A stretch of DNA of 64,000 bases from IMG/VR virus record IMGVR_UViG_3300009164_000056, positions 25,571-89,570 of that record; one strand, 5' to 3'. The stretch's first letter is position 1, and the number at the start of each line of letters is the position of its first letter. Source of the stretch: a virus. The position numbers and the translations under genes were made by a program. Shown here piece by piece: positions 23,846 to 50,848 of the stretch. The notes under the pieces were generated by a model. The model had not been told where the DNA came from and did not search any database. It saw nothing but the letters and a program-made list of their open reading frames with translations.

Positions 23846-23847
23846 CT

Positions 23848-26403: not shown

Positions 26404-26462
26404 ACTTAAAAAGTTTTATGATTTATCTTGTTAAACTTAATAAATTTTAGTAATTTACAATT

Positions 26463-29400
26463 ATGGCAACATACGTACCAGGAGTAGAAACATATTTACC
26501 AGACATTAAACCGTTTACACCAGACTATAAATTTTTGTCTGCTGTACTTGATATAAGACAGGATAAATATAACACTAATTGGAAGGCAACTAATGACCTT
26601 TACAATAAAATAGTCTATGCAGATTTGTCTAGAACAGATACCAAAGAACAAAGAGATCAATATATAAATCAATTAGCTCCATCTTTAGAGAAGATCTCAG
26701 GGATGGATTTATCATTGGCACAAAATGTAGATGCTGCTAAATCAGTATTTGCACCATTCTTTGAAGATGATTTAATAGTAAGTGATATTATGCATACCAC
26801 TAACTATAGAAAAGAAATGGATTATGCAAATAGACTTATTGATTCTCCTGATCAAAAGCAAAGAGAAAAGTATTCTCAAGATGGGGTAAAAGGTTTACAA
26901 TACCACATGGAGGACTTTATAAATGCTGCTCCTGATAAAGCAATGAAAATGGGGTTACCTAAATTTACTGAAGATGCTGATTTAATAGAATTATCACAAG
27001 AGGTTTTAGGTGCAATGAAACCACCTTTGAAAATGAAGGTAGATCATTATGGTGTAAATCCTGATGGTTCAGTAAATACTGATTGGATTATTACAGAACA
27101 AAATGGTAATTTAGTTACTGGTCCTGCATTACAATATATTCAGAAAGCTTTATTAGATGATCCAAGAGTTGTAAGACATTATCAAAATCAAGCGTTTGTA
27201 AGAGGTAGAGATTTTGCTGCAGAAGGTATGGCCAGCGGAATGTTTACTAGTAAAGAAGAAGGTCAAGCTGCTTGGGCATCTGAAACTATCAATAGAATAA
27301 ATAAACAAAATGAGTACTATGTAAAGAAAGACATTAAAGCTTTAGCGTTAGCTCAAGATGTGAATGTTAGATGGGATAACTATCAAGCTTCTAATGGTAT
27401 TGTTCCAGGTTCTGATGATGAAAAAGCAATGCTTGGACAACGTTCATCTTATGAAGCTACTAAAGCAGCTTTAGATGCAAAGTTAAATATTCAGAAAACA
27501 GCTAATGCACCCGTTAAAGATTTTGAAGGTACATTGAATAAAGCTTATAATCTTTTAATGCAGAATAACATATCTAAAGATATGCAAGCTGCTGCTCAAG
27601 CATATGGTGCTAGAGATATGGAGTATACAATGAAGGTTAATGACTATGCTAAACAAAGAAAAGATTTTGAATATGACTTAGCTAAAATTGAAAGACAACA
27701 TCAAAATGCAATTGAGTTAGCTAATGTTAAAGGTCAAATTGATTTTGATTTAGCTAAAGCAAAAGGAGAAATTCCAACTGAAAACCCTTTACTAAAGGCA
27801 TTATTAAATGGTGCACCTACTGTTGGTGGTGCTCAAAATTCAAATTATCCAGTTGGTCCTGATGGATTAGCAGATAAAAATACAAATATGTATTTAATGG
27901 CAAGCAAAGAGTATGGTGAATTAAGAACTCCAGTTAGAGAGAAACAACTTGATGCTGCTACTAGTGTATTAACATTTTTAAATCCTGCGGGAGAAATAGA
28001 TAATGCTGGTAAACCTACACAAAAATATACAGTAAAAGTAGAGGGTCAAAATTTTACAGGAACAATTGATCAAATAAAAAATAAGCTTGGTACTAAAAAT
28101 ACAGATGGTACTTTTAAGTATAGAACAGATATAGATGATTTATATCAACAACAATCTGCAATATTGAATGATCCAAAACAAATGGCTAAGTATCCTGGTA
28201 AAGCTAAGACAGATACTTATAAAAATTTGTATGCACAAATATATTCTGATCAAGGAATTAATAATCAAGTTCAAGTACTTGATCAAACAATTAATACTTT
28301 AACAACTAAGTATAAAAAAACACATGATGGAGTTGTAGAGTTAGTTAAAGGTGAAGATAGTAAGGTTAAAGAGTTAATGGAAAAAGGAGGGATGCCCGGT
28401 ATATTTGAAACAACAGCATCTGGTTTTAATCAAGAACTTTCTAAATCAGAATATATTGCTAAAGTAGCAAAATTAGCATCACAAGGAAAAGTAAAAAATA
28501 TAGATCTTCCAGGATGGGATACTGGTACAAGTAATAGTAATTATATGCATACTGTTACAAAAGGTACCGGTGAATATTATTCAACTAGAGATGGTGAAGG
28601 TGGTAGTATACAAAAAGAAAGACAGACAACTGTTACTGAATTAGATATGAGTGCTATTGAAGCTGAAGCAGGCAGGGTATATGATGCAATTAAAACAAAA
28701 AGTAATAGTGCTTTAACGGGGCATCTTGGTAATAAGTTTGAAACTGCAACTTATAAAGGTCTTTTATTTGGAAAAACAGGTGCTTCTGAAATAACTACAG
28801 CACCAGTTTATAGATCTGTTGTTGATCCTTTAGTTGCTTCCTCAGAAGGTCAAACTACCTTAGCTCAAATGGTAACGCAAAAGAATATGTTAGATTCACA
28901 AGGTGGTGGTTATTCAATAGTCCTTGGTAATTTATCAGATAAAAAAGATGCTAAATCTATAGGTAATGATGCATTGGCTGCTAAAGCTTACAATGCTTAT
29001 ATAGCTGATATGACAACATGGTTAGGTAATCCTAAACGTAGTAATGATGCAGGTAATTCTCCAAGAGCAACTATTACATATTCTGGTACATTGGGTGCTA
29101 CAGGAGACGGAAATAAAACCACAGCCGGATATACTATTGATGGATTTAATGAATGGCTATCTAGTAAAGTTAAAGGTTCAGTAACAGAATCAAGTGGTGC
29201 TGCAGGTGAATATGGTTTATTTAGCAAATCAGAAGTAGAACAATTACGTAATGGAATTAGTATGGTGTTTGATAAAGGACAAGATATTAATCCTAGATCT
29301 AGTAATAGACAATACTATTCTAAAACATTAGCGGCTGTTGAAGCTAGTCCTGACAAATATGTAGAATATAATTATGGTGGAGTAGATGGTATGACACCAA

Positions 29401-29654
29401 CTGGAACATATAGAATTGTTAAAACAGGAACAGATCAGTTTTATGCTACATATAAATATAATACTTATCAACCTAATGGAACATATACCACAAGTGATTG
29501 GCAACAAATTCCTATAGAAATGGGTTCTTTTAATGCAGCTCAATCAATTGATGCGCAAGTACAAAAAATGAAAGAAACATTTGAAATTAAAAGACAAATG
29601 AACTTAGATGATTATAATAAAAACTCTGCTGTTAACGGAAGAAAAAATAAATAA
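26463..29654 (+). CDS. Large internal virion (cargo) protein, helical
   Basis: 1063 residues. The N-terminus MATYVPGVETYLPDIKPFTP and the following 'DYKFLSAVLDIRQDKYNTNW', 'LSLAQNVDAAKSVFAPFFED' match a pattern recalled from crAss-like and other Bacteroidetes phage giant proteins. The middle is largely helical and Lys/Ala/Gln-rich (residues about 240-420), with a loosely structured C-terminal half rich in Gly, Thr and Tyr. One 'EKGGMPG' glycine pair is present. No catalytic motif is seen. It precedes the giant RNAP-like gene by 37 bases. Inferred role: cargo protein co-packaged with the polymerase. Confidence 0.75.
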   Translation: MATYVPGVETYLPDIKPFTPDYKFLSAVLDIRQDKYNTNWKATNDLYNKIVYADLSRTDTKEQRDQYINQLAPSLEKISGMDLSLAQNVDAAKSVFAPFFEDDLIVSDIMHTTNYRKEMDYANRLIDSPDQKQREKYSQDGVKGLQYHMEDFINAAPDKAMKMGLPKFTEDADLIELSQEVLGAMKPPLKMKVDHYGVNPDGSVNTDWIITEQNGNLVTGPALQYIQKALLDDPRVVRHYQNQAFVRGRDFAAEGMASGMFTSKEEGQAAWASETINRINKQNEYYVKKDIKALALAQDVNVRWDNYQASNGIVPGSDDEKAMLGQRSSYEATKAALDAKLNIQKTANAPVKDFEGTLNKAYNLLMQNNISKDMQAAAQAYGARDMEYTMKVNDYAKQRKDFEYDLAKIERQHQNAIELANVKGQIDFDLAKAKGEIPTENPLLKALLNGAPTVGGAQNSNYPVGPDGLADKNTNMYLMASKEYGELRTPVREKQLDAATSVLTFLNPAGEIDNAGKPTQKYTVKVEGQNFTGTIDQIKNKLGTKNTDGTFKYRTDIDDLYQQQSAILNDPKQMAKYPGKAKTDTYKNLYAQIYSDQGINNQVQVLDQTINTLTTKYKKTHDGVVELVKGEDSKVKELMEKGGMPGIFETTASGFNQELSKSEYIAKVAKLASQGKVKNIDLPGWDTGTSNSNYMHTVTKGTGEYYSTRDGEGGSIQKERQTTVTELDMSAIEAEAGRVYDAIKTKSNSALTGHLGNKFETATYKGLLFGKTGASEITTAPVYRSVVDPLVASSEGQTTLAQMVTQKNMLDSQGGGYSIVLGNLSDKKDAKSIGNDALAAKAYNAYIADMTTWLGNPKRSNDAGNSPRATITYSGTLGATGDGNKTTAGYTIDGFNEWLSSKVKGSVTESSGAAGEYGLFSKSEVEQLRNGISMVFDKGQDINPRSSNRQYYSKTLAAVEASPDKYVEYNYGGVDGMTPTGTYRIVKTGTDQFYATYKYNTYQPNGTYTTSDWQQIPIEMGSFNAAQSIDAQVQKMKETFEIKRQMNLDDYNKNSAVNGRKNK

Positions 29655-29691: not shown

Positions 29692-32600
29692 ATGGAAAAT
29701 CAAGTTGAAAATAACAGTTTAGATCAAACAATTTTGAATAATCAGGTTACAGAAAATGTTATCCCAAAAGATAATTCATTTCAACCTGTAATGGATATGT
29801 TTGATAGTGAAGAAAATAATGCTCTTATGAGCAGAATGGATTTAGCCCAATTACAACAACTTGATGCATTAAAACCATTAATTGATAGTACCGGAATTAG
29901 AGCTAATGGAAATGCTGCTGCAAGAAGACCTACATTATCTTCTAATACCTTTGATCCTGTTCTTCAACAAAATCCTCCTAACTTAAATGAGCCAGGTGGA
30001 TTTGAAAGAATGATGGAACAAAATGTAAAAACTGGTTTTCAACAACAACAAAAAAGTATTAAACCAGGAACTGGTGTAGCTGCACCTGCTTTTACAGGAA
30101 TGGTTCAAAGTAATTTCATGCGTTATTATGAGCATCCTGAATTTCAAAAATTAGGATGGAAACCATTTGCAGATAATGAAGCATACTATAATGCTAACTC
30201 AACCATCTATGATGATATGAGTAGAATGTGGGGTCAGTTTGGTAGTTTAGCAGGAACAGGATTTATGGGTGGTTATAGATCTATAGGATCTATGTTTACT
30301 GGTGAGTCAATGGTAACAGATTTAAAATCTGCAAATGAGTTTGAGGATGCAATGGCAATTGGTAACTCAAGTAGAGGTGGTGCATTAGCTTGGACTAATA
30401 ACTTATTATTAAATTCAGCATATACTGTTGGTATTATAGGTTCTATTGCTGCAGAAGAGTTAGCATTAGCTGCTTTAGAAGTAGGAACATTTGGTGGTGC
30501 AACTCCCCTAGTAGCTGCAAGAACTACAGCCAATGCAGCAAGATTAGCAAGAGCTGTTGGTCAAGCTACTACTGTTGGTAGATTATATAGTGCTGGTAGA
30601 GGAATGATGACTACATTAAAAGGTCTTGATGCAGCAAAAGATTTTTGGTCTGTTGCTAGAGCTGGTGGTAAAATGACAGCCGGATTATTTGCACCTGAAA
30701 CATTAGCTGCTGTCAAAAGATTAAAGACTACAGAAGTAGTTGCACAAAACTTAACTAATATGGCTAAAGCATCTGAGTATGCTGGTTCATTTTATAGAGA
30801 TGTAAGAGCTTTAAATTTAGCATTATCAGAAAGTAAACTTGAAGGAGGTATGGTCTATAATCAATTGATTAAAGACGGTATGGATATTAAGTTTGCTGAA
30901 AATAATGGAGGTCCTGTTACTACAGAACAAGTTGCAGACATTCAGAATAATGCACACAAAGCTGCATTTGCAACTACAATGACAAACATGCCTGTGATAT
31001 ACTTGACTAATAAATTAGTTTTGGGTAATTCATTAGGCGGTTTTAATAAATCATTAGGTAGAGTATTTAATGAACAAGCAAAAGGTATTGGTAGCAGAAT
31101 TATTAAAACTGCACAGACTGTTGGTAAAGATGGTGTAAAATCACTATCTCCATTTAAAGATGCTGGTACAGGACTTAAAGGATTAATTACAACAATTGGT
31201 AATGCAGGAGTTAAAGGTAACCTGACAAAATTAGGTCAAGGATCATTAAGATATTTTGCTGCAAATTTAGGAGAAGGTGTACAAGAACTTTCCCAAGAAG
31301 CTATTTCTGCTGGTACTAAAAATTATTATACTTCTTTATTAAAGGATCCAATGAATGGAGGACCTGAATTGTTTAATGCTTCAGTCAAAGCTGGAATAGG
31401 AGAACAATTTTCAGCTCAAGGTTTTGATGTGTTTATGTCAGGATTTTTAATGGGTGGTGTAGTTTCTGGACCACAAAAATTATTTTTTCAAGGTGTACCT
31501 GCTTTATATCAAAGAGTTGCAAATCCAGAAAAGTATGCTGAGTATAAACAAAACAAAGAAGACTATATTAAATCTGTAGTTGATACTTATAATGCTGTTT
31601 GGAATACACAAGCAGAAGATCCAAATGCAATGTTTGATCCTAAGAAATATAATTTCTTACAACAAAAAGCAGCAGCAACTGGTAAAACACTAGCATCTAT
31701 TGCTAATGATCAATTTGATTTTATTGATGAAACAGATTTTGCTAAGTTTCAACAGATTCATACTGTATTAAGTACAGGTGGTGCTGCTTTATTTCAAGAT
31801 CAATTAGTTGATTATATGAAAATGTCTGATGAAGATTTAGCTACAGCTTTTCCTTCAAGCAAAAAAGATATTAAAAATGGAAAGATTAGAGAACGTCTTC
31901 AAAGTATGGTTAATCAAATTGACAAAACTGAAGATGTATATCAACAATCTAAAGATAGAAATCCAAATCCATTTATGCCTGAAGCTTATGAAAGAGGTTC
32001 AAGACAATGGACAGAAGAAACAATAAAGAAAGTTGCATTTGAACATGCAAGATATCTTTATATGTTTACTCAAGATGGATTTACTAGAGCATTGGAAAGA
32101 TCAAATAGTATATATCAAAGTTTAACATCTGATCCATTGTTTGATAAAATGGCAGCAAGTGATTTAACTGTATTGTTAGATCAAGATTCTATTGATAAAG
32201 AAATACAAATGTTAACTGAAGAAGCTATTGTTTTATCAGGAGACAAAATTAATGAAAGCAAAGTAAAACAAAAGACAGAAAGAATAGAAAGACTATCTGC
32301 ATTTAAAAATGTATTACTAGAAAATCAAACTAAAGATGGTTCTTTTGATAAAAGAAAAATGGGCCTACTTAGAAATGAATTTGAAAAGTATGTTAAACAC
32401 ATGGCTAATCAATCTGGTACATTTGTAAATAAAGAAAATATTGATGCTGCATTAAAACAAATTATAGATTATACTGCATTAAAAGGTAGAGCCAAGGTAT
32501 ATGATAAAACAATTGAGTATTTGAATGATCCTCAAAAGTTTGATCTAGTATTTGAAAGAACTGCTGAAGTATTGAAAGAACAATATAAAAACAGAAAATC

Positions 32601-35600
32601 AATATTTGAACAACAAGTACGTGATTACGTTGGTGTAATTGAAAGAAATGAATTAGCTAATCAAATTGCTAAATTAGGATTTATTCCTAATAATACAGAA
32701 ATGAAAATGTTTTTAGAAACTGGAGACAGTAGATACTTAAAAACATTTTACAATCAAAAAGGAGAACAACTATCTGCTTATGATAAACAAGATCTAGAAG
32801 ATATACAAGCATTGTTAAATGACTATGAAGAAACTAGACCTGATAAAAAAGTAGAAGAAGTTAAAGATGAAGAAGAAGTAGCAGAAGAAGCAAGAACTGA
32901 AGTAGATGATATATTAGATGGTATAAACATTGAAGTTTCAGTTAAAGATTCAGTTGTATTAGATAATACAATGAAAAAAGCTTATGCTAAATATGCAGCT
33001 AAACAAACGGCAGCTGGTAAAAAACCAATCACTTTAGATAAATGGATCAACAGTGAAGATGGTAAAAATCATAGAGCGGCATTTATTGCTGTTAAGAAAA
33101 TTTGGATTGATAATGACACATTGATAAATCCAAATAATCCACTCACTGAAGCAGAAATCCAAAGTGAATCTAAGTTAATACCATGGTTACAAAGTCAAGA
33201 AGGTAAAACAAATGACTTAGTACAGAATGTTGTTAATGCATTAGGGTTAACTATTGATGATGTTACTGGTCAAACAGAGTTGTTACCTGCAGAAGGTGAA
33301 GCTGTTGAAGGTAATAAAAATATAACAATAGTTAAGAAAGGTAATACTGTTTCATTAATTGAATTAAAGACTGTTGACTCACAAGGTAACATAAGTACTT
33401 CATATCAATTAGTAGATCAATTTAAACAACCATTAGAGGAAGAACTATTAAATAGATTTAATGTTCCTTCATTTGGTATTTTTGTTGAGGGAGATAAAGT
33501 TAAAGCATTGTCTATGCAAAAAGCTATTGATGATGCAGCACCAGATACTACGTCATTTATTTTTGATGATGTAGAATTAAACTATGGTCAACTTGTTTAT
33601 GATCAAACAGGTAAAGAATTTATTGTAGTAAGTCAACCAAAACAAGTTGGTACTGAACGTAAATTATTAGTTGTACCCTCTGATGAAATTAGTCCTTCAA
33701 TAGAAGAGACTAAGAAAGCTACCTTTAGTGTTAAGCCGGGTGAGTTTAAAGCATCATTTAATGTGCAAGCTTTAGATCTTAAAGTACTACCACAAAGCGT
33801 TAGTAGGTTAAATATTAATGAACCTATTCAACCTTATGCATATAGAAATAAAGATGCTGCTACTAATCAATGGTTAGAAACTCCTGAACAAGCAACAGCA
33901 AGATATAACTTAGTTATGTCTATGTTGTCTTCTGAAGAATTAAATGAATTAGAATTAATTGTTACATTAGATCCTGAAGGAGGATTAAATAATGGTAATT
34001 TAATTATCCCTGGTTTTAAAGAAGCAAACCCCTATATCCAAACAATAAGAGCAAACTATTCTGTTGGAATTAGAACTTCTAATCCTAATGTGCAGGCTAA
34101 GATTGATGCTGCTATTGAAAAGAACGGTTTAAATAAAAGCAATTCACCAAATGGTGTTTTTGGTTTTATGCAAAATGCAAATTTTGTAATAACTAATTCT
34201 CAAGGTACTGTAATTAATCCTGCTACTATGACAGCGGATGAATACAAAAATATAGTATACACACCAGAAGGAATGGATGTAAATCTTGAAGAAGATTTAA
34301 AACGTGCTCAAAATAATTTTGCATTAAATAATTTATTAAGTTCTATGTTACCTGAGTTAGTAGCAAATAATCCTGATGGAGTTATTGCACTTTCTAAATT
34401 ACCAAACGGTTTATCATTCATCTCTAAACCAGGAGTAACAATGTATGATAAGTCTCCAAAACCATTAGGAGATTTACAATATAGTACTGCTGATGAAGAA
34501 GGTAATTATTTGATTTATCAATTAGAAAATAATAAAGGAGGAGCAAGAACTAAAGTTGCTATATCTAATCTTGAAGGAGAAGAAAGAAGACAACTAATAG
34601 ATAGAGTTGAAGAAAGCTTAACTAAACAAGGATTGTTAGATAGCATTACAAGTTTAACTGATGCTTATGTTGCTGCAGTATTATTACCTGATGGATCATA
34701 TGCTTTAGTAAATCTAAAAGCTAAGTCTATTGATTTGAATGCTAAATTTCTTGAATTAATAAATAGATCTGAAACAACTCTATCTGATAATCCTGAAGCT
34801 AATGCTGAAAAATTTGATAAAAGATTTAACGTTGACTATAACAAAGCATTAAGAAGTGAATTATTTATTAGTGCTAAACCTGGCTATAGACTTTCATTAC
34901 AAGTAAGTCCTTGGGGTAAGATTGAATTAGAAATTTCAGATTCTAATAATAAACAAATAGGTATAGTTAGATTAAATAAATCTGAGATTTCAAATAAAGA
35001 TCTATCAGTTGATGATAAACTTAACTTACTATTAGATAAATTTAATGCGTTACCAGCTGTTGTTGCTGCTGATGTAAATCTTACAGCTGCAAACTTTAGA
35101 GCTTCATACTCTAGAGAAGCGGGTGTTCAAGAAATACTTGATAAGACAACAACACAAGTTGCACCACAAGTAGTATCTAATAATGCAATTCAATTATCTG
35201 CAGATTCTTCAGCTATTCAAGCTGCTAAAAATATTCCTATAGTTCAACGAACTGCTTTTGTTTCAACAGAAGAAATTCCTGTAGGAATTGATGAAATAGT
35301 TTTAGATTTAGATACAGCTGGTAAAAGACTTGATATAGAAAAAAGAAGAAAAGCAGAACTGGATGAATTAAAAAGAAAAAGACAGTTTGATAAAAAGAAT
35401 ACAGATCCTATTAATGCTAGGTATGATGCTGAGTTAGCTGCTTTAGATAGTAGTAAGGAAGTAGTAATAACTTCAGAAGAAAAAGCAGACGCAGTTAATA
35501 CAGATAATATTAATCCTGAAGATATTAATGTAGATGATATTAATGCATTAAGAAATGGTGTTAGATTAAACAAATTAGAAGGTGTTAAGCAACAATTAGA

Positions 35601-38600
35601 AACTCTTAAAGCAAAACTTACCGAAGGGTTAGTTGGAGCAGCTAAAATTAAGGCTGTTAAAGAAAGCAAAGAGTATCAAGATCTTTTAGCTGAAAGAAAA
35701 AAATTAGAAAGTGAAGCTAATAAAATAGTTTCTATTGAAGATGCTGTTGCAGATGCTGAAGACATTAATGTATTTACAGAATGGGCTTCACAAAATCTTC
35801 CAAGTTTTATAACAATAGAAGATATTAAAACATTAGGTGATAACCTTAAAGCTGGAGGTGTACGTGTTGGTGCATTTGTTTTAGGTCTTAATGATATTGG
35901 TGGAGGATTAACTGTTAATGGAACTTTATTTACTGGAGCTAAATCTCCATTTAAATATCATGAAGCATTTCACGGTGTATTCAGAATGTTATTAACTGAT
36001 GCAGAAATTAAAAAATATTTAGCAATTGCTAGAAAAGAAGTAAGAGCAAAACTAAGAGCAGAAGGTAAAAACTTTGAGGCTGAATTAGAAAGATTCAGAA
36101 ATTCAGCTAATACTTATTCTGATATGAGCCGTGAAAGATTAGAACAAGAATACTATGAAGAATACTTAGCTGATGAATTTGAAAAATTTAAAGCAAATGC
36201 AAAATCAACTCAAACAGATTCTTCTGTTAAGTCTTTATTCACTAGAATTATGGAGTGGATTAAATCTGTATTCAGCTCCTTTACTAAGAATCAATTACTT
36301 ACTTTATATGAAAACATTGATGCGGGTAAGTTTAAAAATGCGGGAGTAAGTCAAAATCAATTTGTTACCAGCATGATGACTGGTATAGCATTAGAAGCTA
36401 ATGCATTATTACCATATGATACAGAACAGAATGCCAACAATAAAGTTGGATACTACTTCTTAGATAGTGCTATTGCTGAACCTTTGGTTTCAAGTATAGC
36501 TGCTATGTACATACAAGAAGTTCAAAAAGTAAGAGACCCAAATGTTAAACGCGGGGACATACTTGAGAATGTTATGAATGATTTTGCTGCTTTATATGAT
36601 GAAGAAACTGAAGCAAATCAAAAACTTTCTGATGAACAAAAGAAATTTTTACCTCAGATTAGTGAAGTGTTTTATAATTTTTCTGATGAGTTAAAATCTG
36701 AAGTATACAAAGTATTAAACATTATAACTAAACAAACTCAAGAAGAAGAATATAATAATGAGTATTTTGAAGAAGAGGTTGGTTTAAGAAATGTAGAACA
36801 GTACAGTATGGATGCTTCTATGATTGGTGGTTTTGGTTCTTTATCTGAAGGATTGAGAAGTTACTTAGCTACAACAACTATAGAAGAAACAGATTACTTT
36901 GGTAACAAAGAATTAAAGCCAGGAGTAAAACTAATTGTTCCTATCAACTTTACATCTGCTTATAATGGATTATTAAAAGCTGTTAAAAATATTGATGATT
37001 CTAAGAAGATGTTACAAAACATGTACTTCTTTGGGTTAGATAATCCTCAGACTGGTGCCGTTGTAACAAGATTATTACAAGACTTTGGTATATCTGTAGA
37101 AACATTGTTAGAGGCAGGTCCATTACCTACTGAGATTAAAAATGCTGCTTTATTTACATCTGTTGTAAAAGGATTTACAACATTTAGAGTAGATTACTTA
37201 TTTGTACAAAGAGATAATGCCGGTGCAGTATTAATTTATTCTGCAGCACAAAGAGATGATATTAATTCACAATTAGAATCATGGTCTCAAGCTTGGGGTC
37301 AAGCTGAAAAGAAAATTAAATCTGATGTAAAAGTTAAAAATGAAACTGTTAGAACATTAGAAGATTTTGCAAGTTATTTAAAACCTAGTGATACAAAACT
37401 TACTGGTCCAAAATTATCTGAGTTATCTTCTAAGTATTCACAAGATATCTTTAGACTTACAGGTATTAAACTAAGCAAGCAGTTTATTGCATTTAGTATT
37501 GCATCATCAAGAAACAATCCTACAGTTGCACAGGCAGCATTAGTAAATGCTAATTCTGAGCAAACACCAATAAGCTATAGTGATATTCTTGAAATGAATA
37601 AATTAATTCAACAGGGTAATGACATCTTTAGTGAAGGAGAAACAGGAGCTAGTTCTAGACTTAGAACATTAGCAATTCAAAATGCACCATTTGATGAAAC
37701 AATTGGAGCATCTGTATTTAAAAATCCTGAAGGCAACTTAGTATATGCACATCAATTGCCTACATTCCATTTAAAAAGAATACAAGAGTTAAATGATGTT
37801 GCAGAATTAGAACGTCTTAAAGGATCTGATCCTTACTTGACTAATAACTTCTTATTGAATAGTGATGCCTTTATACAAATGTCTGCAGAAAATAGACAAA
37901 GAGTTTTAAGAATTGCTGGAAGTAGTGTTGGTAAAATTAACAGTACTGAAGAAGAGCTTAATGATAAAATCTCAGGTGTATCTAATAAATCATCTTATGG
38001 TAATTATACACCACAAGAATTTGCATTAAGTATACTTAATACATACACTGCATTATTAAATACTAAAAGTAATAAAGTAGATACAGTTGAATACTTTGAT
38101 GATGTATTAAATAAAAATGTAAAAGCTGCATTAGCTCCAATTCTTATTAGAGTTTTAGAAGCATCTAATACTGGGGATTTAATGTATCTACCTGTAGTTA
38201 AAGCTGTTAGGTTTGAAAAAGCAGGTGCTGGTAAAGTTGTATTAACAGATGAAATAATAAATGCATTTGTAAATAGAATTGAAAGTGAATATGATAGAAT
38301 TAGACGAGAGTCAAATCCAGAAACTAAAACTGAAGAAACTCAACTTGGTTACAATACTGAAGATGGTAGAGCATTTCAATTAATAAATTCAGGTCTATTA
38401 CTTACTCCAGAATTAAAAGTTTCTTTGGAAGAAATTGCAAAACGTGAAGATGCACCTTCATTGAAAGAAGCTTTAAAAGAATTAAATGTAACTGATAAGA
38501 CTTTTAGGTCTGTTGTTAATACACAATTGGAAAGTCAATACACCAAATTCTCTGAAGGTTTAGCTGAATTACAAATTGAAGATCAATTAGGTAAAAGTAT

Positions 38601-41600
38601 AACAGAAGGTTTAGCAGCAACAACAAAAGCTAATCAAAATTTAATTGAGTCAGCTGAATTACTTAATCTTACTTATGATAAAGAATATAACTTAAAACAA
38701 ATATTCTTTAATGACTGGATCAATACAACGTCTATAAATGATGTTCTTTTAGGTGACCAAGCTGTTACATTAAAAGATGGAGTTGATGCTGTTAAAAGAG
38801 CCAAGATGCAGAATGCAGCATACTATAGTGCTTATACTTCTATATCTGCAAAAGATTTAGGTGTAATGCATACAGTTGATGATATTAGTTTAGTTTCTTT
38901 AGAAGAACCAGTGGGTGTTTCTACTTTAACAGGAAAAAATATTGATAGATCAGATGCTCAAATGTGGATGACCACAAAAGCATTTAGATATATGTGGTTT
39001 GGGTTTGGTAAACTTACTCCTGCTCAGGCAAAACTTATTGATAAAATTGAAGCTGGTGAAGATATATCTTCTGAAGAGTTGTTTGGTCAAGATGGTTATG
39101 TTGATATGGGAAGTATGCTTAACTCTAAAAAGTTAGTATATGGTGATGGTAAAACATTCATCAAGATGTCTGCTTTTGTATTGACACCACAACTTACATC
39201 TAATAAAGTAGTAGATGAAAATGGAAATGTAACTTTTGTACCTAAAGAAACTAAAGTTGACTTACACAATTTAAGAGTTAAGCTTGAAGCTATTGAGAAA
39301 ACTAAAGATACAATCAGTATAGCTGCACCATTAAGTGCACTTAAAATGTTAAAGCAACGTGTAAATCCACTAAGTGATTTGGGTAATACTAATTCATTTA
39401 CAAATGGACACACTACATTGAGTGCAAAATACATGGGTCTTCAAGTATTAACACCATCAAATAAGACAGAAGTTATTGATCCAACACAAGTAAAGAACAT
39501 TGTTACTTCTGAACAAAAAGATAGCGTATATGTAGAAGCTTTAGGAATGACAGTTGGTCAAATTAGAACTGCATACAATCTTGCTACCTCAGCTAAAGTT
39601 GAGTTGAAGTTTAAAAACAAAAGGAATTTAATTTTTAGTTTTGAAAAAGGAATGCAAGAACTTGCAATCTCAAAACAAAACAATAAAATAACTCCTAACT
39701 TAACAGCATTCTTAAGATATGCTACTGAGGGTCTTAAAGCATCTCAAGCAAGTAGTAACTTACTAGAGTTCTTCTCAACTCAAGATGGTGAGCAAAAATA
39801 TGATTTAAATAATCCTATTACTTTAAATAAATTTGAGCAATTGTTCTTAAGTTATTTAAGTAAAGGAGCACTTGCAGAAAAGGCACCCGGTCATGCTGTA
39901 GCTTTAGTATCTGACTTTGGTACCAAAGTTTATAGAAGAGTATTTAGTGTAGATGAGAATGGTGTACCAGATAGATCTGAAATAATTAGAGAGAACGTTT
40001 GGAATAGTTTAGCTAATAAACCTCAGCTAGGTGAATATGATACATTATCTATTACACTTAAAGATAACAAAAACGGTGTTGTTATACTTGACCGTTTAAG
40101 ATCTGGTGTTAAAGAATATGATAAAGATGGTAAGTTTACAGGTGAAAGATATACTGAGATGCTTATGCCGGCTCACTTTAAATCTGTAATGGACTTAGTT
40201 GAGAATACTAATTCAGCATTCCCGGATGTATTATCAAAAATGTTTGCTGTACGTATTCCATCTCAGGATAATCACTCAACAATAAATGTTAAACATGTTG
40301 ACTTCTTACCTGGATTTTATGGTTCTTCTGCAATGTTTGCTCAAGAACTTATTGAGATATCAGGAGCGGATTTTGATATTGATAAAGTTTATATGCAGAT
40401 TAAAGAGTTCTATGAAGACAAAGGACAGTTTTATGAGTATGGTAAACAAACTACAGACAATGGTAAATACACAGATTACTTAAGATATGTATCTGAAAAA
40501 GTAAATCAACCAGGAACAACATATGCTGAAGCATTAGATCTATATAGAAATAATCTTCAAGCATCAAGTATTGCAAATTCTGTAACAGATATTGAACAAG
40601 AAATAGCTTCAGATGCAGGACTATCAGAAAATGGTATAAAAGCTTTACAAATTTTAGGACTACCTATTACAAAAGATCAGTACTTAGAATACAAAAAGAA
40701 TTTCCGTGAGCCATATGAAGCTCCAATGAACAATGCTATTTTAGATTACAAGTATGCATTAATGGGTAATACTGGTGTAACAGAAACAACTAATGAAAAT
40801 GAGACACCTATTTCATATACATCTGCTAGTTTACAGATATTAACTGATTCATTAAAGGAATTAGAAGAAGTATTACCAGGGTTACTTGAACGTTCAAGAG
40901 AAGATAACATTGATATTAATAATATCATTGGTAAGATCAAAGCATTTACAAATAACAAAGGTGCTGCTATTGGTGCAATTGTATTACCTAACGTATACTT
41001 AAGTTTATTGACTGAGTATGGTATTACAATAAATGATAAAGGGCCCAAGATTAGTGTTAATGGAATTACTTATGATGACTTTGGGGTAACTAGAGAACAA
41101 CTAGCAAATGGTTTAGAAGGATTACGTAAACAAGATATTATCTCAGCATTGATTACAATGGCTACTGATAATGCTAAAGAACGTCTTGTAGCTAAACTTG
41201 GTTTAAATAAACATGCTCTTGGAGTTGTTGCCAACTTAACTGCTTTAGGTGTTCCTATTAAAACATCTTTATTGTTGATTAACAATCCAATGATACAAGA
41301 TATTTATTCTCAAGCATTAAACAAAAAAGATAAATTAGATCCTGGAGTTAATAGTATTCTGAATAGTATATTGGCAGATTTAACTGAAAAAAGAAAGGCA
41401 GTTAAATTGGGGGATGCTAAATCTATAGAAGCTATTAAAGTTAATGACAATCTTTTAATAGATGCATTTAATAATCCTGAAGAAGTAACTAATAATGAAA
41501 AGATTGCAATATTAAATTTATTTTCAAACGCTGTACAAGTTAAAGACTTTACAAGTAATATGTCTGCTGTAGCCGGTTTAACAAATGGTTTAGGTAAAGA

Positions 41601-43242
41601 TATTGCATCTGTAAATGAGAAAGCTGAACAAATAGATAAGTTGTTTGACAAAGATGCTATGATGGATTTAAATCCAATATACAAAAGCAAAACTTGGCAG
41701 TCAAAATACCTTGAAATATTTAATCAAATTAGAAATGATTTATTGCCTGCTACATTTTTATCAGCTAGTGAGAATTTCCAATCAATACTTACTAAAGTTT
41801 TGGACAATGTTAACTCTGATTCAATTGAATTTACTGAGGAAACTAAAGCAAAAATCTCAAGAGACTTGTTATCATATTTAACTATAAAAGCATATGAGCA
41901 AAATAAATTAAATAATGATCCTCAATCTGTAGCAACATTAAATAATAATTTAGTTTACCCTGGTGGCGGATATGAATCAATTAATGATGTAGTTGATAGA
42001 ATGCGTACAACAGAAGCAGGTCAAAACAATTTTTTCTTGGATAACTTTGCAATAAGCATTAAAGCAACAGATGCTAAAAATCAATCTGGTTTGAACTTGC
42101 TTAATGCAAATACATTTAGAAGTTTAAATGCTGGGCAAAAAGTTGACTTACAAAATTCATTTGCTAAACTATATGGATCATTAGAAACAAAAGATGATGC
42201 TTTATCTATAATCAATTACATAATGGTTAAAGATGGTTTACAAGTTGGCTATGCATCTTTACTAGAAGCTATTAGCCCATTTACCATGGATTCTTATTTA
42301 AGTCAAATTGAAACTGCTAATAAAGCATTAAGAACTAATGATGACGCAAATATCAAAAAGGTATTTGGTTTAAATAGAGCTCAATTAGAATCTGACTTTG
42401 TTAATAATTATTTACAATCAAATATTAATGGGCCTTTGTTATACACTATTAATAGAAGTGAAATAGGAGCATTGCCTAAAGGTATAAGCATTAAAGAAAA
42501 TAAGATTACAATTAAGTGGGAAGATATGTATGGCACATCTCCTAAAGATTTTGTAAGATTAAAACTTGAAGATATTGCTACAGGATTTGTTACTTACAAA
42601 ACATATATGTCTACAACTCAAGATGAGTCAACAACAAAAGTATATGAAGAAATAGAAACAAAAGGATCTAATCAACAAACCGCAATTGGATTTATGTTTG
42701 GAGAAAGACCTACGTATAAAGCTGTAAGACAATCAATTAAGATTAAAAACTTAGGAGCTGAACAAGATTCATTTACTGATAGCATTCAATTTGATGAGAT
42801 GTCTTTTGCACAAGGTGTTCAAACTGCAGCATTACAAGATGAAGATGCAGTTATTGATGCAACTGAATTTGGTGTTAATGTTAATGGTAATAACATTGCT
42901 AACATTAGTGCATTAGAAGCAATGCTTACTGCTGAATCAAAAGAAAAGGTAGAAGAAACTAAATCAGATATTATTGAAACTGGTGTGGCAACAACTTTAG
43001 TTGATTCAATGAGTGATCTTGAAAGAGAGTTATATGAAGAGTTTGCAGCTGAAGTAGAAAATAATTATTCTGCAATTGAGAATTTCTGGGATGCTAATAT
43101 TCAAAAGAACTCAGATGCTAAAGAAAATCTGAGACTAAATAATAATGTGTTATCTTTGGAAGATCTTATAGATATGTACAATAAAGGTATATACACAAGT
43201 CAAGAAGAATTTATTGAACAAATAAAACAATGTAATTTATAA
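29692..43242 (+). CDS. Giant virion protein: metallopeptidase plus RNA-polymerase-like DFDID domain
   Basis: 4516 residues, 13.5 kb in one frame. Residues about 180-300 form an Ala/Gly-rich amphipathic or membrane-active stretch. Residues 2060-2165 hold a gluzincin-type zinc peptidase site: H2090-E-A-F-H2094 and a downstream EEYLADEF (Glu about 2156-2160). Around 3521-3565 lies an RNA-polymerase-like signature: VRIPSQ (Arg3521, Pro3523, Ser3524), then 37 residues on S-G-ADFDID-K (Asp3560, 3562, 3564). Compare bacterial beta-prime 'NRAPT' followed by 'NADFDGDQM', where the three Asp bind catalytic Mg. crAss-like phages carry a virion RNA polymerase with a D-x-D-x-D motif in this position. Inference: ejected polyprotein that transcribes early genes, with a protease that may process it. 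The second Lys-bearing barrel motif was not located. Confidence 0.8.
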   Translation: MENQVENNSLDQTILNNQVTENVIPKDNSFQPVMDMFDSEENNALMSRMDLAQLQQLDALKPLIDSTGIRANGNAAARRPTLSSNTFDPVLQQNPPNLNEPGGFERMMEQNVKTGFQQQQKSIKPGTGVAAPAFTGMVQSNFMRYYEHPEFQKLGWKPFADNEAYYNANSTIYDDMSRMWGQFGSLAGTGFMGGYRSIGSMFTGESMVTDLKSANEFEDAMAIGNSSRGGALAWTNNLLLNSAYTVGIIGSIAAEELALAALEVGTFGGATPLVAARTTANAARLARAVGQATTVGRLYSAGRGMMTTLKGLDAAKDFWSVARAGGKMTAGLFAPETLAAVKRLKTTEVVAQNLTNMAKASEYAGSFYRDVRALNLALSESKLEGGMVYNQLIKDGMDIKFAENNGGPVTTEQVADIQNNAHKAAFATTMTNMPVIYLTNKLVLGNSLGGFNKSLGRVFNEQAKGIGSRIIKTAQTVGKDGVKSLSPFKDAGTGLKGLITTIGNAGVKGNLTKLGQGSLRYFAANLGEGVQELSQEAISAGTKNYYTSLLKDPMNGGPELFNASVKAGIGEQFSAQGFDVFMSGFLMGGVVSGPQKLFFQGVPALYQRVANPEKYAEYKQNKEDYIKSVVDTYNAVWNTQAEDPNAMFDPKKYNFLQQKAAATGKTLASIANDQFDFIDETDFAKFQQIHTVLSTGGAALFQDQLVDYMKMSDEDLATAFPSSKKDIKNGKIRERLQSMVNQIDKTEDVYQQSKDRNPNPFMPEAYERGSRQWTEETIKKVAFEHARYLYMFTQDGFTRALERSNSIYQSLTSDPLFDKMAASDLTVLLDQDSIDKEIQMLTEEAIVLSGDKINESKVKQKTERIERLSAFKNVLLENQTKDGSFDKRKMGLLRNEFEKYVKHMANQSGTFVNKENIDAALKQIIDYTALKGRAKVYDKTIEYLNDPQKFDLVFERTAEVLKEQYKNRKSIFEQQVRDYVGVIERNELANQIAKLGFIPNNTEMKMFLETGDSRYLKTFYNQKGEQLSAYDKQDLEDIQALLNDYEETRPDKKVEEVKDEEEVAEEARTEVDDILDGINIEVSVKDSVVLDNTMKKAYAKYAAKQTAAGKKPITLDKWINSEDGKNHRAAFIAVKKIWIDNDTLINPNNPLTEAEIQSESKLIPWLQSQEGKTNDLVQNVVNALGLTIDDVTGQTELLPAEGEAVEGNKNITIVKKGNTVSLIELKTVDSQGNISTSYQLVDQFKQPLEEELLNRFNVPSFGIFVEGDKVKALSMQKAIDDAAPDTTSFIFDDVELNYGQLVYDQTGKEFIVVSQPKQVGTERKLLVVPSDEISPSIEETKKATFSVKPGEFKASFNVQALDLKVLPQSVSRLNINEPIQPYAYRNKDAATNQWLETPEQATARYNLVMSMLSSEELNELELIVTLDPEGGLNNGNLIIPGFKEANPYIQTIRANYSVGIRTSNPNVQAKIDAAIEKNGLNKSNSPNGVFGFMQNANFVITNSQGTVINPATMTADEYKNIVYTPEGMDVNLEEDLKRAQNNFALNNLLSSMLPELVANNPDGVIALSKLPNGLSFISKPGVTMYDKSPKPLGDLQYSTADEEGNYLIYQLENNKGGARTKVAISNLEGEERRQLIDRVEESLTKQGLLDSITSLTDAYVAAVLLPDGSYALVNLKAKSIDLNAKFLELINRSETTLSDNPEANAEKFDKRFNVDYNKALRSELFISAKPGYRLSLQVSPWGKIELEISDSNNKQIGIVRLNKSEISNKDLSVDDKLNLLLDKFNALPAVVAADVNLTAANFRASYSREAGVQEILDKTTTQVAPQVVSNNAIQLSADSSAIQAAKNIPIVQRTAFVSTEEIPVGIDEIVLDLDTAGKRLDIEKRRKAELDELKRKRQFDKKNTDPINARYDAELAALDSSKEVVITSEEKADAVNTDNINPEDINVDDINALRNGVRLNKLEGVKQQLETLKAKLTEGLVGAAKIKAVKESKEYQDLLAERKKLESEANKIVSIEDAVADAEDINVFTEWASQNLPSFITIEDIKTLGDNLKAGGVRVGAFVLGLNDIGGGLTVNGTLFTGAKSPFKYHEAFHGVFRMLLTDAEIKKYLAIARKEVRAKLRAEGKNFEAELERFRNSANTYSDMSRERLEQEYYEEYLADEFEKFKANAKSTQTDSSVKSLFTRIMEWIKSVFSSFTKNQLLTLYENIDAGKFKNAGVSQNQFVTSMMTGIALEANALLPYDTEQNANNKVGYYFLDSAIAEPLVSSIAAMYIQEVQKVRDPNVKRGDILENVMNDFAALYDEETEANQKLSDEQKKFLPQISEVFYNFSDELKSEVYKVLNIITKQTQEEEYNNEYFEEEVGLRNVEQYSMDASMIGGFGSLSEGLRSYLATTTIEETDYFGNKELKPGVKLIVPINFTSAYNGLLKAVKNIDDSKKMLQNMYFFGLDNPQTGAVVTRLLQDFGISVETLLEAGPLPTEIKNAALFTSVVKGFTTFRVDYLFVQRDNAGAVLIYSAAQRDDINSQLESWSQAWGQAEKKIKSDVKVKNETVRTLEDFASYLKPSDTKLTGPKLSELSSKYSQDIFRLTGIKLSKQFIAFSIASSRNNPTVAQAALVNANSEQTPISYSDILEMNKLIQQGNDIFSEGETGASSRLRTLAIQNAPFDETIGASVFKNPEGNLVYAHQLPTFHLKRIQELNDVAELERLKGSDPYLTNNFLLNSDAFIQMSAENRQRVLRIAGSSVGKINSTEEELNDKISGVSNKSSYGNYTPQEFALSILNTYTALLNTKSNKVDTVEYFDDVLNKNVKAALAPILIRVLEASNTGDLMYLPVVKAVRFEKAGAGKVVLTDEIINAFVNRIESEYDRIRRESNPETKTEETQLGYNTEDGRAFQLINSGLLLTPELKVSLEEIAKREDAPSLKEALKELNVTDKTFRSVVNTQLESQYTKFSEGLAELQIEDQLGKSITEGLAATTKANQNLIESAELLNLTYDKEYNLKQIFFNDWINTTSINDVLLGDQAVTLKDGVDAVKRAKMQNAAYYSAYTSISAKDLGVMHTVDDISLVSLEEPVGVSTLTGKNIDRSDAQMWMTTKAFRYMWFGFGKLTPAQAKLIDKIEAGEDISSEELFGQDGYVDMGSMLNSKKLVYGDGKTFIKMSAFVLTPQLTSNKVVDENGNVTFVPKETKVDLHNLRVKLEAIEKTKDTISIAAPLSALKMLKQRVNPLSDLGNTNSFTNGHTTLSAKYMGLQVLTPSNKTEVIDPTQVKNIVTSEQKDSVYVEALGMTVGQIRTAYNLATSAKVELKFKNKRNLIFSFEKGMQELAISKQNNKITPNLTAFLRYATEGLKASQASSNLLEFFSTQDGEQKYDLNNPITLNKFEQLFLSYLSKGALAEKAPGHAVALVSDFGTKVYRRVFSVDENGVPDRSEIIRENVWNSLANKPQLGEYDTLSITLKDNKNGVVILDRLRSGVKEYDKDGKFTGERYTEMLMPAHFKSVMDLVENTNSAFPDVLSKMFAVRIPSQDNHSTINVKHVDFLPGFYGSSAMFAQELIEISGADFDIDKVYMQIKEFYEDKGQFYEYGKQTTDNGKYTDYLRYVSEKVNQPGTTYAEALDLYRNNLQASSIANSVTDIEQEIASDAGLSENGIKALQILGLPITKDQYLEYKKNFREPYEAPMNNAILDYKYALMGNTGVTETTNENETPISYTSASLQILTDSLKELEEVLPGLLERSREDNIDINNIIGKIKAFTNNKGAAIGAIVLPNVYLSLLTEYGITINDKGPKISVNGITYDDFGVTREQLANGLEGLRKQDIISALITMATDNAKERLVAKLGLNKHALGVVANLTALGVPIKTSLLLINNPMIQDIYSQALNKKDKLDPGVNSILNSILADLTEKRKAVKLGDAKSIEAIKVNDNLLIDAFNNPEEVTNNEKIAILNLFSNAVQVKDFTSNMSAVAGLTNGLGKDIASVNEKAEQIDKLFDKDAMMDLNPIYKSKTWQSKYLEIFNQIRNDLLPATFLSASENFQSILTKVLDNVNSDSIEFTEETKAKISRDLLSYLTIKAYEQNKLNNDPQSVATLNNNLVYPGGGYESINDVVDRMRTTEAGQNNFFLDNFAISIKATDAKNQSGLNLLNANTFRSLNAGQKVDLQNSFAKLYGSLETKDDALSIINYIMVKDGLQVGYASLLEAISPFTMDSYLSQIETANKALRTNDDANIKKVFGLNRAQLESDFVNNYLQSNINGPLLYTINRSEIGALPKGISIKENKITIKWEDMYGTSPKDFVRLKLEDIATGFVTYKTYMSTTQDESTTKVYEEIETKGSNQQTAIGFMFGERPTYKAVRQSIKIKNLGAEQDSFTDSIQFDEMSFAQGVQTAALQDEDAVIDATEFGVNVNGNNIANISALEAMLTAESKEKVEETKSDIIETGVATTLVDSMSDLERELYEEFAAEVENNYSAIENFWDANIQKNSDAKENLRLNNNVLSLEDLIDMYNKGIYTSQEEFIEQIKQCNL

Positions 43243-43248
43243 TAAGCT

Positions 43249-46200
43249 ATGGCAAGATGTCCTAACAAAAACACACCGGAATATAAAGCTTTACAAGAAG
43301 TTTATAAAAGTGAAATTGCAACAAACAATATCATTAATAGTTGGCAAGATGCAAACAACACAGAAGTATTTCCTACTGTAGTTGAGGCACAACAATTTGC
43401 TAAATATAATAAAGTTGCTTTTGCATTAAAACAAAAAAGTTTTGCTGAGAGTTTATTAAACAATTTAAGAGATAAAAAATTAATTCATAATAAATATGGA
43501 TTGAATTTAATCAATGTAACTAATCCGGATCTTTTCTATACTGATAGAGTTTATGATAGAACAGTTGTTGAAAGTAACCGCAATAAAATTATTGAATATT
43601 TAAAGGCAAACAATATTCCTTTAGATGCTGTTTCAATTACAGCAACTGATAAAACATATAAGATAGAAGTAAATGAAAATATGTTTACTCCAAAAGATAT
43701 GTTGGAATCTTCAAGATCTTGGGATACACCAAGAGCTAGAGCTGTTGTTATGCATTTGATGAGAATGTTTCCACAAATACAAGTTAAAATGCTTAGTGTT
43801 GGTGAAGCAGAAATTCTTTTTGATTCAATTCCTGAATGGCAAAAAGGTAATGTTAAATTTAAAGAAGTAAATTCATTTTATGTTGGTGGTGTTGCATACT
43901 TAGTTAAAGGAAGAGTAACAGATGAGACTGCTATTGAAGAAATGTTACATCCATTTATTGATGCAATTAAAATAGATAACCCAGAATTGTTTAGCACTTT
44001 ATTAGCAGAAGCTAAGTTAAACTTTCCTGAAATGGTTCAATCTATTACAGAAGCATATAATAAGGATAGAAGTTTTAGTTCATTAGAAAGAGATCTTGAA
44101 ATTGTAACTCAAGCATTGTCTAGACACTTCAATAAAGAATATGAAACAACTCCAACCAAAAGATTCTTAGATAAGATTAAAGAAGCACTGGACTGGTTTT
44201 TAAATGTTATTAATAATTTAAATGAATATATGACAGGTAAACCATTATCTGTAAAAGACATTAATAACAAAACTAACTTTAGTGATATTGCTAAACTTTT
44301 AAATACAGAGGGTATACGTTTTAAACTTGAGAGTAAAGCAAATGGTAAAGTAAGATATTCATTGTCTCCTGAGAAACAAAAAATAGTAGACAAAGCTTTG
44401 GATAAATCTAATAGTATACAACAAGAGATAATTAAAAAACTATTTCATGTTGCTGTTAGTTCAAAAGAAGAGATAGATTCATTGTCTGCAAACTTAAGTG
44501 ACACTGCTTCTGCTAATACAATTGTGGTCCTTAATAAAGAAGATCACACATATGTGGATATTACCAACCGTGAAATCTATAAGTCAGTTACTACAGCAAT
44601 TAAAGGACAATTAGCAAATGAAGAAGATGTACAACTTAATTTAGCAATTGGTAATGATGTAGATGCTTTATTAGATGCAATTATATCAGAGCAATCATTT
44701 GATGAAGCATTCCCTAAAATGAAAGTTTTAGATAAAGAATTAGCCGGAAGAATGTTTGATATGTTAGAAGAACAGATTACTCAGTTAATTCCTCAAGGTG
44801 CCGTTGGTATTTCACAAGTAGTTGTATTTGATGAAGCAACAAAGCTTGCTGGTACAGCTGACTTAGTTGTTATTGATAAGAATGGTAAGATTAGAATTGT
44901 TGATTTAAAGACAAGTAAAAATTCTATTTATGATAGAACTTTTGTTGATGCTGTTAAAAATAAAATACCAGGTAGAACTCAAGGTACAAAATATGAGTTA
45001 AAAGAATATGAATTAAAAGAAGACATGCCTGCTTTAGATGCAAAAGGAAATCCTATTTTAAATGCTGATGGCTCACCAAAAATATATCTTGGTAGTGATC
45101 TTAAAAAATTATATGGAGTTGACAAACTATCAACTATAGCTCAACACAATCTTCAAGTAAACCTTTACAGACGTATGTTTGAGAATATGGGTTACACTGT
45201 GTATGAAGGTGACGGTGGTGCAATTACATTTCATATACAAGCAGATATAACTGGTGTAGGAAAAGATCAAGTATTTAATAATAACTTTAGATTAGATGGT
45301 AGAGTAGAACACCCTATATCTGAAAACTTATTGTATGTTAATATGCTTGTCCCTTCTGTAATGAATAATACAGAAAAAGAAAGTCTTGATAAAGCAATTG
45401 ATGCAGCTGAAGATGCTATCTACCGTGGTGATAAAGATGTTGATGCATCAGAAAAAATTGCTGATACAATTGAAGCTCAAGAATATCCTGAGTACAATAC
45501 TATTTTTGATGCATTACAAAACTATAGTGTTGCTTTAATGGAGCAAGATAAGGCGTTAGATAGACTTAAGACTAATGTTTATAGAGACAAAACCAAAGAA
45601 CAAACACGTGATGATATTGCGAGTACACTAGCATACATTGCTAGTAACATTAATACTGGTCCAATAGCAAGATCTCAAACTTATACTAATCTATTAAGAG
45701 CTTCTTTAAATCAAATGCAGAAATTTACTGCTTATGTTGAAGATCCAGCTAATGTAAACAAACCTGAGTATATTACATATGCATTAAACTTTAATAGATT
45801 CTTAAGTACATTTGAAGCTTTGTATTCAATTAAAGATTCTAAAGAACTTAATGCTACACAAAGAACATTGGTTCTTCAAATGCAACTTGAACAAAATAAA
45901 CTTTTAGGTACTAATGGTAATGAAGGTTTGATCAATGATGCTATTATAAATTATGTAAAAGAAACTATTAGAACTAGATCAACAAATGATTGGGGTGGTA
46001 AGGGTAGTGGTTTTACAGAAGATATGTTAGATGATCTTTTAGTTATGGCTCCAGATATTGCAATGGATGCATTAAATGTTCAAGATATGGCTACTCAAAA
46101 AGATACCATACTTGCAGTAATGGATAAAATATATAAGAGTCAAAAACAAAAACTTTTAGATAGAATAGAAGAAAGAGAATTTGCAATTAGAAATGCTGGT

Positions 46201-50838: not shown

Positions 50839-50848
50839 GTTTTTGTTA

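Follow-up and report, generated by a model that had tools for sequence, protein, structure and literature searches.

Paired terminal cysteines at the gene breaks of a crAss-like phage locus encoding a giant fusion of zincin-like and predicted RNA polymerase domains

The crAss-like phages are the most abundant viruses of the human gut, and how enzymes of several hundred kilodaltons traverse a channel too narrow for their folded form, in correct order and number, is an open question for these as well as for the N4-like phages. The gene examined here belongs to the window, a 64,000-nucleotide stretch of viral DNA (positions 25,571 to 89,570 of the IMG/VR record IMGVR_UViG_3300009164_000056, a contig of 89,570 bases). 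The frame of the gene (29692..43242, plus strand) starts with ATG, contains no internal stops and codes for 4516 amino acids. From the letters alone, an original prediction had placed a zinc peptidase and an RNA polymerase-like domain in this one chain. The motifs are located as given, HEAFH being at residue 2090, EEYLADEF at 2156, VRIPSQ at 3520 and DFDID at 3560–3564; the distance between HEAFH and EEYLADEF, estimated at about 65 residues, was measured as 66, and the span of 3521–3564 from VRIPSQ to DID was accurate within one residue. The chain length, considered exceptional at the time, is not: larger proteins are known from the Suoliviridae cr118_1 (4946 aa) and cr55_1 (4551 aa), gp44 of p-crAssphage (Carjivirus communis) comprises 4070 aa, and crAss-like proteins of this kind reach approximately 6000 aa (PMC10136315).

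RNA polymerase and zincin-like domains of the giant protein

Searches of the giant protein against Pfam, PHROG and PDB sequences gave nothing useful, and tblastn with its C-terminal third retrieved annotated crAss-like RNA polymerase (RNAP) catalytic subunits and nothing else notable. The proposed comparison with gp66 of Cellulophaga phage phi14:2, the virion RNAP of PDB entry 6VR4, was carried out with HHalign and aligned residues 3512–4041 to 1313–1836 of gp66 (E = 2e-12) and residues 3010–3171 to 869–1040, in collinear order; matches to gp50 of Bacteroides phage crAss001 (E = 4e-14) and p-crAssphage gp44 (E = 6e-14) were obtained by the same method. Together with the fold match described below, the gp66 alignment defines an RNAP core of residues 3010–4041 (38719..41814), in which approximately 1000 residues are collinear with gp66 and share its DFDID, paired lysines and bridge-helix motif. 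In an alignment of 41 diverse crAss-type polymerases, including those of phi14:2, crAss001 and p-crAssphage, the pattern R-I-P ... G-x-D-F-D-x-D was essentially invariant, and the three aspartates of the catalytic DFDID (residues 3560–3564, 40369..40383; D1361–D1365 of gp66) were present in 41/41. The paired lysines that had been proposed as a check were found at K3147 and K3158 (39130..39165); they align to gp66 K1012 and K1027, are each kept in 40 of the 41 polymerases, and are the putative catalytic lysines of a second barrel located upstream in the same chain. The conserved set further comprises R3521-I-P, S3529, G3558, D3560, D3562, D3564 and D3826-x-x-K3829, the last belonging to a bridge-helix region motif that starts at S3818 (41143..41178; S1604...K1615 of gp66) and is kept in 37–40 of the 41. 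As gp66 itself reads DFDID at 1361, the DFDID of the giant protein is typical, and its reading of DID rather than DGD is not the difference it had been taken for.

An AlphaFold2 model of residues 2960–4060 was of modest quality (pLDDT 62), with values of 22–50 across much of the stretch near DFDID, where a double-psi barrel would be expected. In a Foldseek search this model gave 6VR4 as the only significant PDB fold match (E = 6e-13, probability 1.00, 1130 columns, with a TM-score of only 0.39), the next hit having an E value of 0.17. Shuffles of the giant protein gave an expectation of 0.002 occurrences for HExxH and of about 1.1 for DxDxD; as the DxDxD string alone is at chance level, the reality of the motif rests on its conservation. 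That DxDxD is a chance motif in a protein other than a polymerase, as its occurrence about once per shuffle and the weak model around DFDID might suggest, is extremely improbable in view of the homology, the fold and the complete catalytic set. With every catalytic position conserved, the polymerase reading stands, and the giant protein is predicted, with support from sequence and model, to be a single-chain two-barrel virion RNAP of the crAss type.

The N-terminal module Z (residues 1–2280, 29692..36531) is recognised through its C-terminal domain as the counterpart of crAss001 gp47, residues 2087–2220 aligning to 2154–2296 of gp47 (HHalign, E = 2e-10); tblastn with residues 1–3000 gave no match in named phages. 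The zincin-like domain (residues 2041–2260, 35812..36471) forms a peak of conservation. It contains HEAFH (residues 2090–2094, 35959..35973) and EEYLADEF (residues 2156–2163, 36157..36180), the latter with the likely third zinc ligand, and HEA[FG]H followed by EE after 61–67 residues was invariant in 16 divergent relatives (16/16) down to about 31% identity. The p-crAssphage equivalent is annotated as a zincin, and the homologous upstream protein in Rudgehvirus is noted as 'ZnMc_tr'. A model of the domain was of low confidence (pLDDT 64) and gave no PDB match, and no Pfam match was obtained; a hit to the Pro-Pro endopeptidase 6fpc was weak (E = 0.085), left the HExxH uncovered and was not used. 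The zinc peptidase of the original prediction is thus supported in its ligands, while the fold was not confirmed by so weak a model, and residues 2041–2260 are described here as a zincin-like putative peptidase. Since gp67 of phi14:2 differs from the giant protein in lacking HExxH, the protease is not universal. The seam between Z and the polymerase (residues 2281–2340, 36532..36711) is the least conserved stretch separating the two domains (conservation 0.27) and coincides with the position of the gene break in split relatives.

Occurrence of the fusion among Crassvirales

The joining of putative peptidase and polymerase in one polypeptide is real and is kept in a large environmental clade, with relatives of the giant protein at 23 loci of 28–90% identity and at >412 loci in IMG/VR. 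The same fusion of Z and polymerase, with HEAFH and DFD[IV]D, was found in the deposited Suoliviridae genomes cr118_1 (YP_010110531.1), cr55_1 (YP_010110313.1) and cr4_1, where it had been unrecognised until now and carries no annotation beyond hypothetical protein or 'exonuclease V'. These proteins carry a cysteine fourth from the end, and the next protein has a cysteine near its start; they differ in forming a separate, distant lineage of the polymerase tree, which was built by a quick method and has long branches. In the giant genes of the Suoliviridae cr4_1, cr131_1 and cr52_1 (loci L119, L121 and L130), 37–53 in-frame standard stops were counted, consistent with stop-codon recoding. Of the two close contigs L055 and L056, the former has an intact giant protein (4452 aa) and the latter frames of 2788 and 1683 aa, likely the result of a frameshift or an assembly error.

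In the Steigviridae examined, the three parts (Z, polymerase and the polymerase-associated subunit A) are mostly separate genes, and in Intestiviridae the polymerase is joined to its other neighbour instead. Phage phi14:2 differs from the window in having three separate genes. Gene product 47 of crAss001 ends in the same HEAFH domain as Z, with gp50 as the polymerase and gp49 as its associated subunit; however, these genes are split, gp47 lies on the opposite strand, and cysteines at the seam take the place of the fusion. In p-crAssphage, unlike in the window, the polymerase and A are fused and the split is between Z and the polymerase; the two products are annotated as 'RNAP associated protein fused to zincin protease' (gp45) and 'RNAP catalytic subunit fused to unknown RNAP subunit' (gp44).

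The portal (E = 1e-30) and the large terminase subunit TerL (E = 7e-17) of the phage both match crAss001 and, together with the transcription block, assign it by sequence to the Crassvirales. In the polymerase tree, whose quick method and long branches apply here too, the window falls into a clade of 26 environmental sequences outside the Steigviridae, Intestiviridae and Suoliviridae, giving no placement in a named Crassvirales family, and fusion or splitting has switched at least twice. The portal protein of locus L036 (13594–16341) has as its closest named relative that of the cyanophage Leptolyngbya phage Lbo-JY46 (32.6% identity, E = 6e-103); being far nearer to this phage than to the crAss-like phages of Bacteroides or Cellulophaga, it suggests that the host may not belong to the Bacteroidetes.

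Terminal cysteines at gene breaks

The giant gene is followed by that of the polymerase-associated protein A (1925 aa, 43249..49026, plus strand), a homolog of crAss001 gp49 (phmmer, E = 5e-24) that is linked through gp49 to the same family as gp65 of phi14:2. It carries an added PD-(D/E)XK nuclease-like domain (residues 426–650, 44524..45198; PHROG 298, E = 9e-10; Pfam PF12705, E = 3e-5, passing the curated cut-off), a kind of domain already known in crAss transcription proteins (PMC7886860). Upstream of the giant gene, three proteins of 738, 851 and 1063 aa (21629..29654, plus strand) occupy the position of cargo or ejection proteins and, judged by gene order, probably are such.

The five proteins encoded between 21629 and 49026 contain two cysteines in 9093 residues. 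These are Cys4514 (43231..43233), the third residue from the end and the sole cysteine of the giant protein, and Cys4 (43258..43260), the sole cysteine of protein A. The three upstream cargo proteins have none in 2652 residues, and many other proteins of the same phage have about 10–35 per 1000 residues; the muzzle position is occupied by a virion structural protein of 2033 aa (13848–19949, plus strand) with 33 cysteines, in sharp contrast to the adjacent cargo, which is free of them. Nearly every relative keeps both terminal cysteines by position while the flanking sequence varies.

The cysteines at gene breaks were surveyed in 364 IMG/VR loci, reduced to 226 nonredundant ones; the first ATG was taken as start, and loci with recoded stops were left out. 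Cysteines on both sides were found in 159/162 nonredundant loci at the break between polymerase and A, and in 74/80 at the break between Z and polymerase, compared with 1/42 and 3/30 at control junctions nearby. To assess the role of chance, enrichment was computed for each residue and clustering was applied at identities from 90% down to 40%. Clustered at 40%, 29/29 (polymerase/A) and 11/13 (Z/polymerase) retained the pair. A cysteine was present among the last five residues in 91% of cases against 0.5% expected, which is 170 times the expectation, and no other residue was enriched more than 1.8-fold there, lysine coming next at this value.

Presence of the cysteines followed the gene structure. 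In clusters of 50% identity, the polymerase had an N-terminal cysteine in 44/51 lineages with Z split off and in 0/27 with Z fused and HExxH in place, and it had a C-terminal cysteine in 82/91 lineages with A split off, 9/91 being without, and in 0/25 with A fused and no further large ORF. If 'fused' was defined more loosely, by any HExxH 1150–2100 residues before DxDxD, an N-terminal cysteine was seen in 19/61, some of them possibly true exceptions; in some Intestiviridae polymerases the first cysteine is at position 17 or 35. Among the polymerase lineages with a long C-terminus, 6/31 (50% clusters) end in cysteine and have a further large ORF downstream, which has a cysteine near its Met in L242, L248, L155, L288, L374 and L252. 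As they precede a cysteine-starting ORF, these exceptions obey the rule rather than break it, and the six loci perhaps hold a fourth module with its own joint.

The same arrangement was found in the characterised phages. As in the window, the termini at the breaks of the phi14:2 locus carry cysteine pairs (gp67 C1797 and gp66 C3; gp66 C2179 and gp65 C3), and corresponding pairs are present in crAss001 (gp47 C2339 and gp50 C5; gp50 C2404 and gp49 C5) and in p-crAssphage (gp45 C1956 and gp44 C3). The virion polymerase of coliphage N4 belongs to a different polymerase class from the crAss type. Gene product 50 of N4 resembles the giant protein in being huge and an ejected virion RNAP; gp50, gp51 and gp52 have 0 Cys and, unlike the giant protein with its C4514, no terminal cysteine. 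An HExxH motif in N4 gp50 has been noted (PMC12633501). Thermus phage P23-45 has in gp96 a two-barrel polymerase that shares its chain with a very large virion protein (PMC10770324), but here the fusion partner is a tail tape measure and the phage is long-tailed. In the literature searched on cysteines or disulfides in crAss or virion RNAP cargo, we found only the disulfides of the crAss001 tail and vertex; an earlier mention of the terminal cysteines is possible.

Two distant cases were observed in addition. In Lbo-JY46 (L131, 7355–20261), a 1552-aa protein ends in VNC and a 2748-aa homolog of protein A starts with MSNC; in neither was a catalytic DFDxD or a recognisable polymerase found. In the distant relatives L027–L029, the polymerase ORF stops approximately 160 residues past DFDID and has a cysteine at about position 4, and the upstream ORF ends in ..LKDC; an intron or a frameshift is possible for the break after the active site.

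Proposed covalent coupling and alternative explanations

Cysteine pairs are present where the chain is interrupted and absent where it is continuous, so that the simplest reading is a covalent joint that is needed either way. Modules that are either fused or paired by cysteines suggest delivery as one covalently linked protein train. Z, RNAP and A thus probably form one covalent head-to-tail chain, held by peptide bonds or inter-protein disulfides and threaded through the tail. That disulfide couplings are interchangeable with gene fusion, so that subunits too large for the tail channel arrive in the cell in sequence and come apart in its reducing cytoplasm, we consider a shade more probable than the contrary. 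In such a mechanism, the giant protein would be crAss-like virion cargo, composed of Z, ending in the zincin-like domain, and the polymerase, with the separate subunit A coming next. Within the virion the three would form a continuous thread, each joint being either a peptide bond or a disulfide from the last-residue cysteine to the first-residue cysteine; in this phage, a peptide bond would connect Z to the RNAP, and C4514 would be bonded to Cys4 of protein A. The thread would traverse the narrow tail with order and stoichiometry fixed, whereupon the reducing cytoplasm would open the disulfides, the parts would refold and the polymerase would transcribe the early genes.

The crAss001 tail contains disulfides, and gp47, gp49 and gp50 were detected in the crAss001 virion by mass spectrometry (PMC10172136); the polymerase proteins are believed to occupy the cargo zone of the capsid and to exit via the tail partly unfolded. 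As disulfides occur in crAss001 virions and the chain is otherwise nearly free of cysteine, like the unrelated ejected proteins of N4, a disulfide joint would fit. Virions are assembled in a reducing cytoplasm, so the disulfides would have to form late, which counts against the model, as do the minority of loci that depart from the cysteine pattern, the 19/61 obtained with the looser definition and the lack of HExxH in phi14:2 gp67. To our knowledge, no described delivery system works by a disulfide-coupled protein train. If true, the cysteine rule would represent a way of delivering proteins that nature has devised, with cysteine-free cargo strung together by couplings that reduction can open, and would offer a concrete answer to how order and number of giant enzymes are kept through the tail channel. 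The rule also locates the borders between modules in giant proteins that have diverged strongly, and it allows correct start codons to be predicted.

The zincin-like domain could sever the peptide joint of the fusion once delivery is complete, or could target a host or virion protein. Compatible with the covalent chain, and hence its rival or its complement, is a self-processing polyprotein as already envisaged in the original prediction, in which the zincin would cleave near residues 2220–2340, at assembly or after ejection, and free the polymerase. The domain adjoins the seam of Z and polymerase, and in split relatives Z terminates 183–334 aa past HExxH, soon after the zincin. HExxH was also commoner in fused (87/109) than in split (20/70) partners, which would suit a protease acting where there is no reducible joint; however, this difference is confounded by ancestry, which explains it equally well. 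As the zincin is also found in lineages with separate genes (crAss001, Intestiviridae), the peptidase fold is unconfirmed, and the seam shows no conserved cleavage-like motif in the alignment of relatives, we regard self-processing as rather unlikely.

A similarly low probability was assigned to the terminal cysteines serving another partner, for example through a metal, through a bond to the portal or to a DNA-bound or membrane protein, or as a docking handle. A lone reactive cysteine could fulfil any of these roles, and the disulfide itself is deduced from the pairing. Yet both cysteines come and go together with the gene break, the upstream cargo proteins offer no cysteine for pairing, and one cysteine per side would not by itself supply enough ligands to bind a metal. 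Very improbable is a constraint at the level of DNA or translation, such as overlapping signals at the junction that incidentally encode cysteine. Most breaks lie within about 30 bases and TGT accounts for ~90% of the cysteine codons, as such a constraint would have it, but TGC is used too, the cysteines are located 1 to 5 residues from the end and 3 to 7 from the start with variable flanks, and adjacent gene junctions are mostly without cysteine, as in the controls above. Both cysteines are kept where the Z and polymerase genes are on opposite strands; with crAss001 gp47 and gp50 so arranged, gene adjacency is not the cause of the pairs. A DNA-level cause was rejected on these tests of strand, codon and neighbouring junctions.

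Two further features of the window lie outside the cargo genes. The large and small subunits of a ribonucleotide reductase are encoded just past the transcription block on the opposite strand (49213–51829, minus strand). An LCIB-type beta carbonic anhydrase (59446–60435, plus strand; Pfam PF18599, E = 7.5e-18), unusual in a phage, is possibly a metabolic gene tied to a CO2-fixing host.
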